Origin: Aurelia coerulea
Lineage: Eukaryota > Cnidaria > Scyphozoa > Semaeostomeae > Ulmaridae
Assembly: GCA_039566865.1 (NCBI GenBank)
Contig: CM076943.1
Coordinates: forward strand, 39,006,663-39,070,662
Direction of reading: 5' to 3'
DNA length: 64,000 nt
The notes under the pieces were generated by a model, which was not told where the DNA came from, did no database searches, and saw only the letters and a program-made list of their open reading frames with translations. Within the stretch, counting starts at the first letter, position 1. The number at the start of each line of letters is the position of its first letter. This document shows positions 25,101 to 62,700 of the stretch, piece by piece. Both the position numbers and the translations under genes were made by a program.

Positions 25101-28100
25101 ATTATATATATAAAAACACACTTAAAAACACTTAAAAAACACTTAAAAACACTTAAAAAACACTTTAAAAATACTTAAAACATATATACCGGGTGAGTCA
25201 GAAAAAACGTGGGGTGTTTGGCAGATTGTGACGTCGCGTTCAGCAACCCGATCGTAGCGAACTAAATTTGTTCTTGCAGCCAGAGGTTTAACTTAGATCA
25301 TAAGCTTTTCCCCATCGAAATCGGTCACTTGATGTATTAATCAGAAAATATTTCCTTCGTAAGAAGTTGTATGGGAGTTTTGCAAACTTATGAAATCGTT
25401 GATAGAGCCCCTTCAGCATTTTACCCTTGCCAAAGCCGCAGGTACACGTGGTATTATCAGGGGAGAATGAAATAGTTTTGTCATGAAACAGCGCGTTGAT
25501 CGTGTTGAAATAAATCTCTTTACAACACAAAGAAGCATGCGTTTTTACTGTCTCTCAAACATATTCTCTTTGCAAGACAAGTTATGACGTGCCAAGGCAT
25601 CCAAGGGGAGAAAACACTATTTCCGAACTGTTTCATGCTCCCCAGATAATACCACGTGTACCTGCAGCTTTGGCAAGGCTAAAATGCTGAAGGGGCTTGG
25701 TTAAAGGTTTCCTCAGTTTGCAAGACTCCCATACAAAGTTTTAGGAAGAAAATCGTTTTTAAATAATGAATCACATGACCGATTTCGATGGGAAAAAGTT
25801 CATGATCTAAGTCAGATTTATGGCTGCACGGAATAATTTAGTTCACAACGGTCAGATGGCTAAACGCGACGCCACAGTCCGCCAAACACCCCACGTTTTT
25901 TCTGACTCACCCGGTATATATATATAGTGTAAGGTTAGAAGAGGGCCTAACTACTCAAAGAAACAGGCATCTGTTTGGTCTTTTGCGCTTTTTCTTTTCC
26001 AGTGCTGACGTTTCGCCCACTGGGGCATCTTCAGAGCAACTGGATAATTTTAAGAAGTCAACCTATATTTATAGTCAAAAAATTTAATTACAAGAATTTA
26101 TGTCCATATAAGGTCCTTCCGGTTCTTCATAAAACGTTTAAGTTTCGTCCTTCTTGCTGTTGTTGTTGTTGTTTTGTCATTCTTCTTCATTGTATCCCGG
26201 TTGCTGTTCTTGTTGTTCTTTGTCATCTCACGTAAGATTGTTTCTTCGATGTTGTTGTGTTCTTTCTTGCTGTTGTTGTTGCTATTGTTCTTCGTTGTCT
26301 TTGTTCTGATTGATGTTGTTGTTGTTGTTGTTGTTGTTCTTTGTCATTTACGTCAGATTGTTTCTTCGATGTTGTTGTGTTCTTTCTTGCTGTTGTTGTT
26401 GCTATTGTTCTTCGTTGTCTTTGTTCTGATTGATGTTGTTGTTGTTGTTGTTGTTGTTCTTTGTCATTTTACGTCAGATTGTTTCTTCGATGTTGTTGTG
26501 TTCTTTATTGCCGTCCTTGTTGCTGTTGTTCTTCGTTGTCTTTTATTCTGATTGATGTTGTTGTTGTTGGTGTTGTTCTTTGTTATTTCACGTCAGATTG
26601 TTCTTTGTTGTTGTTGTTGCTGTTTCATATGATGTCAGATTGATGTTTCGTCGAGCGAGATTCGCCGTCCCAACTGGTTTCAGTCCTTCGTAGCCGGTGG
26701 CTGATTCCATGAATCTAAAGCCACCTCGAGTGTACCTGTACCCTTTTCTTTCGTTTCTTCTCGTTTCTTTTCTATTTGGCGTCTTTCACAATTCGAGTGT
26801 CTTTCTGAAGCATCGGTTCTGAGTTGCAGTCTTTGTTGTTGGTGTTTCTTGTTGCAGTTGGCTTGTTGTTGACTTTGAAGCGCTTCCTGTTCTTTATAGC
26901 GGGCCATTCGATGCCCTAGTGGGCGAAACGTCAGCACTGGAAAAGAAAAAGCGCAAAAGACCAAACAGATGCCTGTTTCTTTGAGTAGTTAGGCCCTCTT
27001 CTAACCGTAAGAGTTGCTCTGAAGATGCCCTAGTGGGCGAAACGTCAGCACTGAAAAAGAAAAAGCGCAAAAGACCAAACAGATGCCTGTTCCTTTGAGT
27101 AGTTAGGCCCTCTTCTTACCGTACACTATATATATATATATAGGTCGAAACACAGAAATGACAACAAACCCGTTGAGACGTAACGCTAATATGATATGCT
27201 ACTAGTTTCGTCTGTTCACGCAGACTCTTCAGGCTTATTTGCCTGAAGAGTCTGCGTGAACAGACCTGAAGCCTGAAGACGTGAACAGACAAATAAGCCT
27301 GAAGAGTCTGCGTGAACAGACGAAACTAGTAGCATATCATATTAGCGTTACGTCTCAACGGGTTTGTTGTCATTTCTGTGTTTCGACCTATATCTTACAG
27401 TACCTGGATCACTTCGTGTTTCGCTCTATATATATATATATATATATATATATTCTCATAAGCTCATTCGCAATATGTAATAAAAAAGATATATGTAGTC
27501 AAGAAAAACACATTCTAGTAAACGTTTCGGCGTAAGCCTTCATCAGTAATAGCTTTCCAAATTAGATGGAGCATACATATAAACCTTGAAATAACAATAC
27601 AATATAAAAAACAATAGCCTGAGCGGGATCCTGATTATTACAATAAGTCATAAAAGGTGCAAATGGGGGTGTAGCCAAAGGCGGCAATGGGAAGATCAAA
27701 GAAAGCGCAGAGTAAAGAGCTGCTAAAGTCGGCGGCGGTGTCTGTCTCGCGGAAGCTAGAAAGAAAAAAACGTGTGAACTAACAAAACAAGCAATAGAAA
27801 GATCCAAGAGCGGATTGGCAGAAAAGAGATCCCTAAAAAAACAGCGTGTGTCCCTAATGAAAAGCAGAGCGCAAAAATCAAAACAACCAAACAACCAAAA
27901 TGTAAACAAAAATCAAATCTATGTATCAACCTGCCTAGTGTTTAATCCCTTAGGGGCAAAGCAATCCAGCCGATATTGCCAGAAGCTTTCCCGCATCCTA
28001 TTTCCCCCCGTTAGCCTATCGATTATCTTAATACTAATATCCTTCAGAAACCCGTGGTGGCCTTCTCCAGTAAAATGCCTGAAGAATTCCGCCTGGGGTA

Positions 28101-59700: not shown

Positions 59701-62700
59701 ACTCCGTACAAGACTTGCAATTACTACCGCTACTTAAGATACATGACACCAGAGAGAGTGTTAGACGAGCCAAGGAAAATTACTTCATTGACTTAGCGAA
59801 CACTCTCTCACCCAACGGACTGAACAGAACCACAGACCGCTAACAAACACAGTTGTAAGTAACCTAATCTACTCACTCTCTTACCTTACCTATTCTCCTC
59901 ACTATCCCCATCATTATTATTATCATTATATCGCAGTTAGTTTCTAACATTGCATTTACATAATCATTATCATTATTATTATTATTATTATTATTATCAT
60001 TATTATTATTATTATTATTATTATTATTATTATTATCATCATCATATTATTATTATTATCACCATCAGCATTATTATTATCATTATTATTTTGATTAGCA
60101 TCATCATCATTTTACTACATACATTACATAGCCGTTATAAACCTAACCCATATAACCTCTGCGTAGCCATCATATCTAACCAATCACGTGTTACTTCTCC
60201 TTTTCAAATCGCTGTACATATTCAAATTTTTATTATAACTGTCACATTACAGCCCTGAAGAAGTCCTGCATGGCAGGACGAAATATTGGCAAAAATTAAT
60301 TTAATCGTATTTGCTGTTGTTTTTTGTCGTGTTGCGGTGTTTCTGCCTTTAAATTTATTCATTTTTTCGTCATCGCAAGCATCTTCGGATCCGGCAATCG
60401 ACGTTGGTATCGTGGCCTTTACTTTTTCAAATTATTTTATCAGATTTGTTTACATTTTGAGACGGAGCCCCTTTAAAAACGACCTTTCGCGTGGACAAGA
60501 CGAGAGTTTGCCCTGCTAGTGTTGGGGCAACATTTGCCGCTTTGTTTGTTTTAAATTTTACTGATTGAGAGAATTTCCTTTGTTTGCAATCACTAATCGC
60601 TTTGAATTGAGGTCATAACATCATCCAATTCAATTCGGAAAAATTGAGACTCGTTGTCGCAAGTCTTTTTTTTCTCATTTTAAAATTATTTATGCACGGT
60701 AGCCCCGTCAGTCAGTATGACTGATTTTCAGGGGGCCGTGCCAAAAACTTTACAAATTAAAAAGTCTACTGGAGTCTCCGAAATTAAATAAGCCCCCGGG
60801 GACTTAACCCTATTCTACATAGCCTGCGTGCAACCTCAACTGCTATATTCTACATGGCTACAAGATACTTTGTTTCCAGCGAGAAAATTGCGTCAGCAGA
60901 ATATTTTCGCTGTCCTTTGAGCATTTGCTAGACCTGACCCATTTTTATGCAGAATAAGAAAAGAAAATAGCAGCTGGCGCCCTACACATTCAATGACAAA
61001 CACCTAGTATAGACCAACCTACCTCCTCTCATTGATACCAATGTTGCAACAAGAAAAACCGATTTCATTTTGGAGAAGTATTCTTCTTCTTCCCAAGTGT
61101 AAGGTTTGAAGTGATATAGGCTGCTTTTCAACTCTGGACTCCATATCACAAAATCATGCTCATAACAGCCTCCCTTGTCGCATATTTTTACTATGTTGTT
61201 GTTGCTGTTACCATCTTCGTCAAGGTAGCGATACACGTGAGATATTTCGGTCCCAAACTTGATATTTAGATTTTCTTTCTTCGCCATGGTCTCCCAGAGA
61301 TTTTGAAATCCATGCTTTACCAAGAATGTTCCTACAAAGAATAGATAAACCATGGATCTTAAAGAGGGGGGCCTTGCCGGAACGCTGCAATTTCAGACCG
61401 TCTGAGAACAAATTTGGTCTAAGGGGACACTGTGGATCCACAGATCCACACTGCAGTAGCCGAAGTGATAGAAAACTTTGACTTTAGTTGACTTTTCTAT
61501 CAGGAAGTTAGACCAAATTTGATCATCAGACCATCTGAAATTTCAACGCGGCAAATTTGCCCACCTAGTAGACTTTTTGTCATTACTCTATCAGGAGATC
61601 AATTATGGACGGAATCTTTCTGATCTTTTGCTGCTACTTATTTTGCAACGGCTCAAAAAGTTTCATAAAAGTATTTTGACAAATGAGGTGGGGGGAGACG
61701 ATTTTCCAGAAATGACTCTGTCATGTCAAAATCACCAATTCTCAAATATCCATTCTCTTGAAAAAAGTAGCAAAATTGCAATATTCTGCAGAAATATTTT
61801 TCAGGGTAGTGTTATTTGATGCAATCTATCATAATTCTTATGTCTGCATGGAAATTGTGCTTCAAATTAGATTTTATTGCATTTTCCTGATTTTGGCCGA
61901 TTTTGCCACTTTTCTTGAGCACACAAAGAAAATGCTGACGCGAGCAATAATGACGGCCAATTTTAGCTTAATTTTCATACCGGGTGTCCCGAAAAAATAT
62001 ATTATTGATTTGGTTGACTCCAACGATGTGAATTTAGCTTCAATCAATGTCTAATCACTCAAACATGTTCTAGATACCTAGTTTCCTTGAACATAGGTAC
62101 CTCGTTTGTTGGTATTGGTGCTTTAAGAACAGGCATGTTAATGAGAACAGTGAGAACAAGATAAATGGAGAACAAGCCACAGGGAGCCCTCATAAAAAGT
62201 AGCAAGAGGCAAACGAAATGCGGCTTCTGCGAGTGAGATACGGCAAAAGCGGCATCTGTGGATGTAGAGGACCTCCCCCGCTCTTTCCTCTCTCTCCTCT
62301 GCAAAGCCGCCAAGCGCACATTGCTCCTCCATAGATGCCGCTTTTGCCGTATTTCACTCGCAGAAACCGCATTTCGTTTGCTTCTTACTACTTTTTATGG
62401 GGGCTCCCTGTGAACAAGCCTTTCAAACGGCGTGCATTTCTCCTGACTCACTCAATTGTAAAATCGATCAAGGATTTAGAGCTTGTTTTGCTGCAGTTTG
62501 GGATGAAGCATTCTTATGAATTCATGCAACCAATTTTAAAAAACTAAACTTTTTGATCTAAGCTAATATGTTAGCTACACGTGTTTTATTCATTTTATAG
62601 GAATGTGATAAATTGTTTGAGAGCCACTGGCTTTCAAACCAGTAAACATTTTTTTACTCAACCAGTATGTCCCGTCATTATTTGCGATGGGCTCAATCAA

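Follow-up and report, generated by a model that had tools for sequence, protein, structure and literature searches.

Minimal type I hammerhead motifs with palindromic stem III in Penelope-like and similar noncoding elements of a 64-kb Aurelia coerulea locus

A 64,000-nucleotide stretch of the scyphozoan Aurelia coerulea (assembly GCA_039566865.1, contig CM076943.1, positions 39,006,663 to 39,070,662 of the forward strand; hereafter the window) raises the question of whether the CTGANGA...GAAA cores that recur in it belong to self-cleaving ribozymes, and what such ribozymes might do in the mobile elements that carry them. A sequence-only reading had listed about fourteen such cores and assigned them to hammerhead ribozymes of Penelope-like elements (PLEs). 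A scan of both strands with an explicit descriptor recovered 15 type I hammerhead layouts and matched nothing else; every place on the earlier list proved real, with agreement to within a few bases, and the presence of hammerhead-type motifs in the window is confirmed. We consider it probable that these are minimal type I hammerheads positioned near the 3' ends of PLEs and of similar noncoding elements, that they dimerise and trim transcripts, and that new copies arise from RNA whose cut site is intact, either uncut or resealed.

The descriptor specified the core CTGANGA, an optional single inserted base, a stem II of at least 3 pairs with a Watson-Crick closing pair, and GAA. Stem III was a palindrome of 4-8 nt with A first and T last, the cleavage base was any base other than G, and stem I had to be paired at its first two positions and at no fewer than three of six in all. 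All 15 motifs carry the core CUGANGA...GAAA enclosing stem II and form stem I in the type I order, with an unbroken run of at least 3 bp in 11 of them; the pairable stem I claimed for most of the cores is thus borne out. A palindromic stem III is likewise found in every motif, in five kinds (ACGT in four, ACTAGT in seven, ACGCGT in one, ATAT in two and AGGCCT in one), in accordance with the very short or palindromic stem III noted before; the palindrome was demanded by our descriptor and not by the earlier list, and the two lists nonetheless agree. Dinucleotide-preserving shuffles of the window (n=300) gave 2 descriptor matches in total (about 0.007 per window), and 179 permuted cores run on the real window gave none. 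A stricter descriptor, demanding an unbroken stem I of at least 3 bp, retained 11 of the 15 motifs and found none in 200 shuffles.

The motifs are distributed over six unrelated stem II sequences (Table 1; core positions are numbered by the standard hammerhead convention). The sequence-only reading had counted four, and its idea of several lineages built around one core stands, while the number does not. One base is inserted between A9 and stem II in 12 of the motifs (U in eight, A in four), and at base 7 there is A in 11 motifs, T in three and C in one. Three motif pairs (27232/27299, 27546/29102 and 57962/60255) are opposite arms of inverted repeats, and hence the independent events are fewer than 15.

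A local covariance model, R1, was trained on F1 and F3 from the window together with five motifs from elsewhere in the genome, in a seven-row alignment. A different alignment, A2, in which MAFFT had misplaced F5 and the 6-nt palindromes, was dropped and replaced by A3, without F1' and F5. In the R1 alignment 84.3% of the cells are paired, against a mean of 52.5% upon shuffling and 23-49% when slid, and both partners change in all six stem I pairs and in three of the four stem II pairs; these pairing statistics are partly circular, the rows having been chosen by a descriptor that demands pairing. R1 recovers 12 of the 15 window motifs, two of which are training members and one (27515-27552) identical in sequence to a training member. 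Among the held-out families, F1' is found with E values of 5e-6 to 2e-5 (its stem II being common to F1), F4 with 1.6e-4 and F5 with 0.027, and up to an E value of 10 the model reports nothing unexplained in the window. Applied to 277 kb from other parts of the genome, of which 77 kb had been chosen for containing core matches, R1 gave 40 matches at E<=10. Of these, 17 had E values below 0.001, five training members included; the other 23, all with 0.36 or higher, were treated as background. An AT-rich repeat at L077 5543-9471 (C1:45000001-45010000, C1 being the contig of the window) shows many weak minus-strand matches (E 0.47 upward), also treated as background.

The proposed tie to PLEs holds for a part of the motifs. 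A tblastn comparison that used the 120 PLE relatives listed as queries delineates five PLE intervals in the window (27925-28359 minus, 28289-28723 plus, 29596-31983 minus, 58376-59134 minus and 59117-59840 plus), and past each of these frames, on its own strand, lies a hammerhead, at 376, 373, 250, 414 and about 412 nt downstream, respectively. Two pairs of the intervals are inverted-repeat arms, and the five represent three independent insertions. Thus 5 of the 15 motifs (F3, F4 and F5) are located just downstream of PLE endonuclease frames, whereas nine (F1, F1' and F2) belong to elements without an adjoining PLE match. We term the latter noncoding in the sense that they have no PLE match and no frame of at least 120 aa other than two: 26075-26548 on the plus strand, which is of low complexity and antisense to the motif at 26034, and 32764-33138 on the minus strand, the only such frame overlapping the F1' array and antisense to it.

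The F1' element provides clues regarding the RNA from which such copies arise. Its array in the window, with unit lengths counted from hammerhead core to core, has no PLE match by tblastn and no frame of at least 120 aa on the hammerhead strand. The element is multicopy: with the unit 33315-34344 as query, 1270 candidate places were obtained, the best-scoring 40 of which yield 139 pieces, and 129 of these were grouped into 51 blocks, 10 short rows of at most 84 bits being left out. The scored set is the best-scoring part, is biased to long copies and includes some near-duplicate blocks. The blocks end at unit position 122-127 in 42 of 51 cases, about 95 nt beyond the cut at 30/31; their 5' ends are scattered over 1-975 (three start at 1 merely since the query does), and none of the 51 falls on position 31, the first base beyond the predicted cut. 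Were linear cut RNA the usual template, with copying initiated near 125, position 31 is where copies should end; no copy ends there. Thus, the integration footprint begins downstream of the cut and crosses it, which argues against linear cut RNA as the usual template, and the integrated F1' copies derive from uncut or religated (resealed) RNA.

For F1' alone, the leading alternative is that cut units are religated to circles and that rolling-circle reverse transcription of these produces the tandem arrays, as proposed for retrozymes, whose circles are documented in coral, mussel and salamander (PMC7229834). Two or more hammerhead starts are present in 16 of the 51 blocks, and the units are near-identical in three of the four arrays compared, with 0/935 substitutions in L080, 3/1014 in L082 and 3/1030 in the window (units measure 935-1022 bp in L080-L082, and 1030 and 1015 bp in the window). 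However, the two units of the fourth array, L081, differ at 10/756 positions and each is nearer to a window unit (6 substitutions), and the same arrays would result if a tandem array were copied from one long transcript that stayed uncut. Within-array divergence across these four arrays is therefore compatible with both rolling-circle copying and linear tandem templates, and we hold the circular route to be a genuine possibility that falls somewhat short of even odds.

In the mechanism that we favor for the motifs as a whole, each carries a core and a predicted cut site of its own, with a stem III too short for self-closure. Two copies, on the same tandem transcript or on two transcripts, could pair via their palindromic stem III and swap stem I strands, and the resulting double hammerhead would cut both copies, thereby trimming tandem or read-through transcripts to units. 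New copies would come from RNA not left cut, with reverse transcription predicted to begin about 95 nt downstream of the cut and to read back through it. Double hammerheads of PLEs formed through palindromic stem III, in tandem copies, have been described (PMC6466107, citing Lunse 2017), and a lizard PLE hammerhead, dispensable for insertion in vitro, does cleave in vitro (PMC11167929).

Several points weigh against this mechanism. Cleavage itself is a step that we infer. In nearest-neighbour folding of 13 motifs (two of the 15 being identical to a third) the double hammerhead was never the minimum-energy structure, and other dimer folds were predicted to be more stable in all 13. In the lizard element there are no reads that start or end at the cut site (PMC11167929). 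Many of the window copies are 5'-truncated or inverted, and consequently many may be relics. The F6 motif (53054) has no PLE near it, and R1 misses both F2 and F6. Lastly, the Rfam library gave no hammerhead match over the whole window at the gathering score, and at E<=10 no hammerhead family in 25000-37000, 52950-53150, 60200-60340 or 35630-35710. The sequence-only reading had itself proposed an Rfam search and named background scores as its refutation; on its own terms the search went against it, yet the local model finds most of the motifs. We take this to mean that the library models accommodate neither the reduced stem III nor the inserted base, and the negative scan leaves the class of minimal hammerhead standing. 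Sub-threshold miRNA names returned by a permissive Rfam scan were located on foldbacks and (TA)n and were set aside. Overall, the sequence-only reading is partly supported, its hammerhead-type motifs, their origin in more than one lineage and the tie of some of them to PLEs being the parts that are upheld.

Some of these points would be accounted for if the motifs were relics or passengers, i.e. real descendants of hammerheads that no longer cut or are no longer needed, copied along with an adjoining start of reverse transcription. Truncated and inverted copies are indeed frequent in the window, mutants of the lizard hammerhead still insert in vitro, with no reads starting or ending at the cut (PMC11167929), and the F1' blocks never start at the cut site. 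Against this, the hammerhead and tail, which make up the first 125 nt of the F1' unit, are its best-kept part, with 0-2 substitutions per 125 between the four arrays versus 0.7-5.6% elsewhere; of 44 blocks, 43 show a higher BLAST identity for the terminal piece than for the longer one, though gaps in the CAA repeats depress the identity of the longer pieces; and one core is kept across six unrelated stem II sequences. We consider the relic interpretation unlikely, although it deserves weight. Less likely again is that the conserved unit is a protein-binding or reverse-transcription start structure that happens to share the hammerhead fold, with catalysis incidental. The extension of conservation into the tail beyond the ribozyme is consistent with such a structure, as is the start of reverse transcription inside the lizard element's own RNA (PMC11167929), but the letters in common are those of the catalytic core, and the insert is limited to A/U, as in a mutated viroid ribozyme (PMC3705267). 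Chance matches to a short consensus are practically out of the question in view of the shuffled and permuted controls and of families repeated across the genome, even though the core CTGANGA...GAAA alone also occurs at other places in the window and a stem II is present in just 16 of the first 100 listed matches to the T7 pattern CTGATGAN{4,30}GAAA.

The inserted base was followed genome-wide with the pattern CTGANGA-X-G...CGAAACGT, in which X is the insert, stem III is ACGU and the closing pair is G-C. An inserted A was found 3177 times (reversed control 4), T 680 times (control 0), C 23 times (control 1) and G 16 times (control 1). A and T together account for 3857 of 3896 (99.0%), and the controls for A and T sum to 4. 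The insert-free pattern occurs 27 times (control 12); 16 of these are the G-insert matches again, and one of the remaining 11 has a proper stem II, by inspection. Thus, motifs whose stem III is the 4-nt ACGU and whose stem II closes with a G-C pair almost invariably carry an additional A or U behind A9. The count does not demand a full stem II, its copies come from few families and are non-independent, and the insert-free F2 and F6, with 6-nt palindromes, fall outside it. Among the first 100 listed T-insert matches, at least 4 stem II pairs form in 85, compared with 6% after shuffling of the interior letters (this scoring covered the T-insert list, not the A-insert list). An absolute rule in which the insert is never C or G is ruled out by the 23 C and 16 G inserts; about 10 of the 23 C-insert matches seem, by eye, to be one family with the stem II GAAGCA...TGCTTC. 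This stem II family takes both C and T inserts and is the main exception to A/U.

The plus-strand hammerhead of chrysanthemum chlorotic mottle viroid (CChMVd) similarly has an extra base between A9 and stem II, which there is a peculiarity of one viroid ribozyme and here is the rule in the ACGU type. The extra A of the viroid ribozyme comes at a moderate cost, U in its place cuts 3-4 times faster in trans, and C or G is very harmful (PMC3705267); the natural distribution of inserts fits this mutagenesis. The A/U insert may already be described for PLE hammerheads, and we do not claim it as unreported. More tentatively, the dimer-type hammerheads with a 4-nt stem III might constitute a distinct core subclass with an essentially obligatory A/U, having relatives in ~1-kb noncoding PLE-like elements that integrate from RNA with an intact ribozyme site, uncut or resealed; we rate this possible rather than probable. 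If it were true, the role of the ribozyme would be to generate RNA that is circular or of unit length, and not the 5' ends of insertions. The strong insert rule and the F1' integration footprint, both drawn from one genome with thousands of copies, are in any case two constraints that can be put to use.

Two properties that had been singled out as unusual, the diversity of the hammerheads and the frequent A at position 7, turn out to be ordinary, and the locally unusual feature is density. Position 7 is the free position of the hammerhead core. The first 100 listed T-insert matches have A there in 51, T in 30, G in 16 and C in 3, the F5 core with its stem II exists with both A7 and T7, and A at position 7 is thus ordinary in this genome. 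The pattern CTGATGAN{4,30}GAAA occurs 39,640 times genome-wide versus 5,511 in the reversed control, and CTGAAGAN{4,30}GAAA 35,359 times versus 15,486, totals that do not equal ribozyme counts. As for diversity, listings from the 574-Mb genome again contain the stem II sequences of F1, F3, F5 and F6 as well as one resembling that of F4 (F2 was not searched for), and relatives of F6 are found at L053:4102 (6/6 stem I pairs) and L051 (5/6), with a decayed copy in L050. Such a range is expected within one genome: for the coral Acropora millepora, 16 families with a total of over 6000 type I motifs are reported, mostly minimal and PLE-like (PMC7229834). The density, in contrast, is 15 motifs in 64 kb versus 2 in 200 kb (the same contig, sampled at even spacing in 20 pieces of 10 kb), i.e. 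the window is about 23 times denser than the contig sample, with the uncertainty of a count of 2.

Minimal ('small') type I hammerheads of PLEs were reportedly recognized by Cervera and de la Pena in 2014 and by Lunse, Weinberg and Breaker in 2017. The motifs of the window are of this published, dimer-type kind, minimal variants of which are described in PMC7761336, PMC6466107 and PMC6155905. They share with it the type I order, the intact core, the reduced palindromic stem III, the tandem copies, the placement in PLE termini (here F3, F4 and F5) and the expected action as dimers; nothing decisive separates them, although several families here reside in elements without a PLE frame. The F1' element resembles the animal non-LTR retrozymes in being multicopy, with protein-free tandem repeats and a type I hammerhead per unit, and departs from them in several respects. 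Retrozyme units are mostly ~150-450 bp (the Discussion gives circles of 150 to over 1000 nt) versus 935-1030 bp in F1'; published retrozymes have canonical hammerheads, whereas F1' has the minimal PLE type with the 6-nt palindrome ACUAGU and no canonical hairpin III; and the nearly fixed 3' end and inverted terminal copies of F1' are both PLE-like (PMC7229834). A description of ~1-kb noncoding PLE-type units was not met in the open-licence PLE and hammerhead literature, in which no search was aimed at them. With PLEs bearing pseudo-long terminal repeats (pseudo-LTRs; PMC3846280, PMC11167929), the elements of the window share a reverse transcriptase frame with a putative GIY-YIG-type C-terminus, AT-rich surroundings, stretches rich in (AAC)n or (AAT)n, 5' truncation and inverted copies placed head to head; the rotifer PLE paper (PMC3846280) has no occurrence of the word hammerhead.

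Table 1. Hammerhead families, individual motifs and PLE-related frames of the window. Family rows give the position of C3 of each member; stem II of individual motifs is written as strand-loop-strand.
Feature	Coordinates	Strand	Details
Family F1	26034, 27019	-, +	U insert; stem II GCCC/GGGC; stem III ACGU; predicted cut after C
Family F1'	33315, 34345, 35360, 35648, 35629	+, +, +, +, -	U insert; stem II as F1; stem III ACUAGU; predicted cut after U
Family F2	27232, 27299	-, +	insert-free; stem II GUCUG/CAGAC; stem III ACUAGU; cleavage base A
Family F3	27546, 29102	-, +	A insert; stem II GGC/GCC; stem III ACGU; cleavage base U
Family F4	29358	-	U insert; stem II GAC/GUC; stem III ACGCGU; cleavage base A
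Family F5	57962, 60255	-, +	A insert; stem II GUCCUGC/GCAGGAC; stem III AUAU; cleavage base U
Family F6	53054	-	insert-free; stem II GAAC/GUUC; stem III AGGCCU; cleavage base C
Hammerhead F1	26001..26040	-	GCCC-CAGU-GGGC; both descriptors; R1 E 5.9e-9, held out but family in training
5'-truncated F1 hammerhead, without CTGANGA core	26910..26932	+	partial R1 match, 12-33/39, E 0.0094
Hammerhead F1	27013..27052	+	GCCC-UAGU-GGGC; both descriptors; R1 training member
Hammerhead F2	27194..27238	-	GUCUG-CGUGAA-CAGAC; descriptor; missed by R1
Hammerhead F2	27293..27337	+	second arm of 108-nt inverted repeat; descriptor; missed by R1
Hammerhead F3	27515..27552	-	GGC-UUAC-GCC; descriptor and R1; identical to training member at 29096
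5'-truncated PLE C-terminal (GIY-YIG type) frame	27922..28323	-	left arm of 848-nt inverted repeat; tblastn
5'-truncated PLE C-terminal (GIY-YIG type) frame	28289..28726	+	right arm; Pfam GIY-YIG 18.4 bits, below cut-off 22.6
Hammerhead F3	29096..29133	+	descriptor; R1 training member
Hammerhead F4	29323..29364	-	GAC-CAUAGA-GUC; descriptor; held-out R1 match E 1.6e-4
PLE reverse transcriptase/endonuclease open frame	29611..32136	-	842 aa stop to stop
Open frame with Q/P-rich middle	31842..32810	-	323 aa; lies upstream of the PLE frame and overlaps it in a different phase
F1' tandem array	32896..35484	+	one partial unit, then units measuring 1030 and 1015 bp, and a 125-bp partial unit at the end
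Hammerhead F1'	33309..33350	+	GCCC-UAGU-GGGC; both descriptors; R1 E 2.1e-5
Hammerhead F1'	34339..34380	+	both descriptors; R1
Hammerhead F1'	35354..35395	+	both descriptors; R1
Hammerhead F1', inverted partner in head-to-head pair	35594..35635	-	descriptor; R1 E 4.8e-6
Hammerhead F1', direct partner in head-to-head pair	35642..35683	+	descriptor; R1 E 4.8e-6
Hammerhead F6	53020..53060	-	GAAC-GCAG-GUUC; both descriptors; no PLE frame nearby; missed by R1
Hammerhead F5	57924..57968	-	GUCCUGC-AUG-GCAGGAC; descriptor; held-out R1 match E 0.027
5'-truncated PLE C-terminal frame	58376..59188	-	left arm of inverted repeat of ~1.2 kb per arm; YIG motif by eye
5'-truncated PLE C-terminal region	59057..59840	+	right arm; GIY-YIG 13.5 bits, below cut-off
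Hammerhead F5	60249..60293	+	descriptor; found by R1

The longest PLE frame of the window, 29611-32136, matches RVT_1 (PF00078; E 4.7e-12) and has 429 relatives at E<=1e-3, the best with 95% identity. The Pfam GIY-YIG model is recovered in 6 of 13 aligned PLE members and not in this one, which has a YVG motif by eye. No pseudo-LTR was seen at both ends of this copy, only the 3' region with F4, and it appears 5'-truncated, as its 5' side meets (TA)n and an oppositely oriented array. The open frame at 31842-32810, with no Pfam match at 1e-3, may be the first open reading frame of this PLE. The frame at 58376-59188 has no Pfam GIY-YIG match at E<=5; in its counterpart on the other arm the open frame stops at 59689, with PLE similarity extending to 59840. 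The truncated F1 copy at 26910 forms part of a 114-bp tandem repeat with 27024-27123.

The region 27473-29175 is an 848-nt inverted repeat, 99% complementary, with a 7-nt centre; it could be a product of PLE self-priming or, less likely, an assembly artefact. Around the F5 hammerheads, (AAT)n arrays (58126-58250 and 59966-60090) lie between PLE frame and hammerhead on both arms, and rotifer PLEs carry (AAC)n/(AAT)n stretches (PMC3846280). Among the first 100 listed A-insert matches, all on C1 and part of them in a duplicated cluster, 22 of the 36 neighbours at most 3 kb apart are arranged minus-then-plus, i.e. head-to-head with the hammerheads outward; head-to-head is the commonest inverted arrangement in rotifer PLEs (PMC3846280). 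Two F3 runs that include F1/F1' copies, at C1:17018874-17103184 and C1:17206198-17291245, are similar in order and spacing and lie ~187 kb apart, suggesting a duplicated PLE cluster.

Viral contigs had no relatives of the PLE protein, and the prokaryote genomes had them on one contig only, in a mussel-symbiont bin (L001), where a search for the core pattern found nothing. Hammerhead patterns at 48 viral loci (41 + 7) were taken as chance matches: after filtering of these loci and L001, 22 motifs with both palindrome and stem II remained, and stem I was just 0-2 bp long in every one of them, which is the reason for treating them so.

Elsewhere in the window, 48678-49552 is a satellite of six 143-bp units that are ~94% alike; it was considered as a retrozyme on account of minus-strand CTGAAGA...GAAA in 3 units and rejected, none of its units matching the descriptor. 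At 35971-36112, close to (TA)n, lies an inverted repeat of 69 nt whose arms match perfectly around a 4-nt centre; it contains no hammerhead. The open frame at 49727-50230, which has no Pfam match at 1e-3, combines a signal-peptide-like start with FGKR motifs near its end and, by eye, looks like a neuropeptide precursor.

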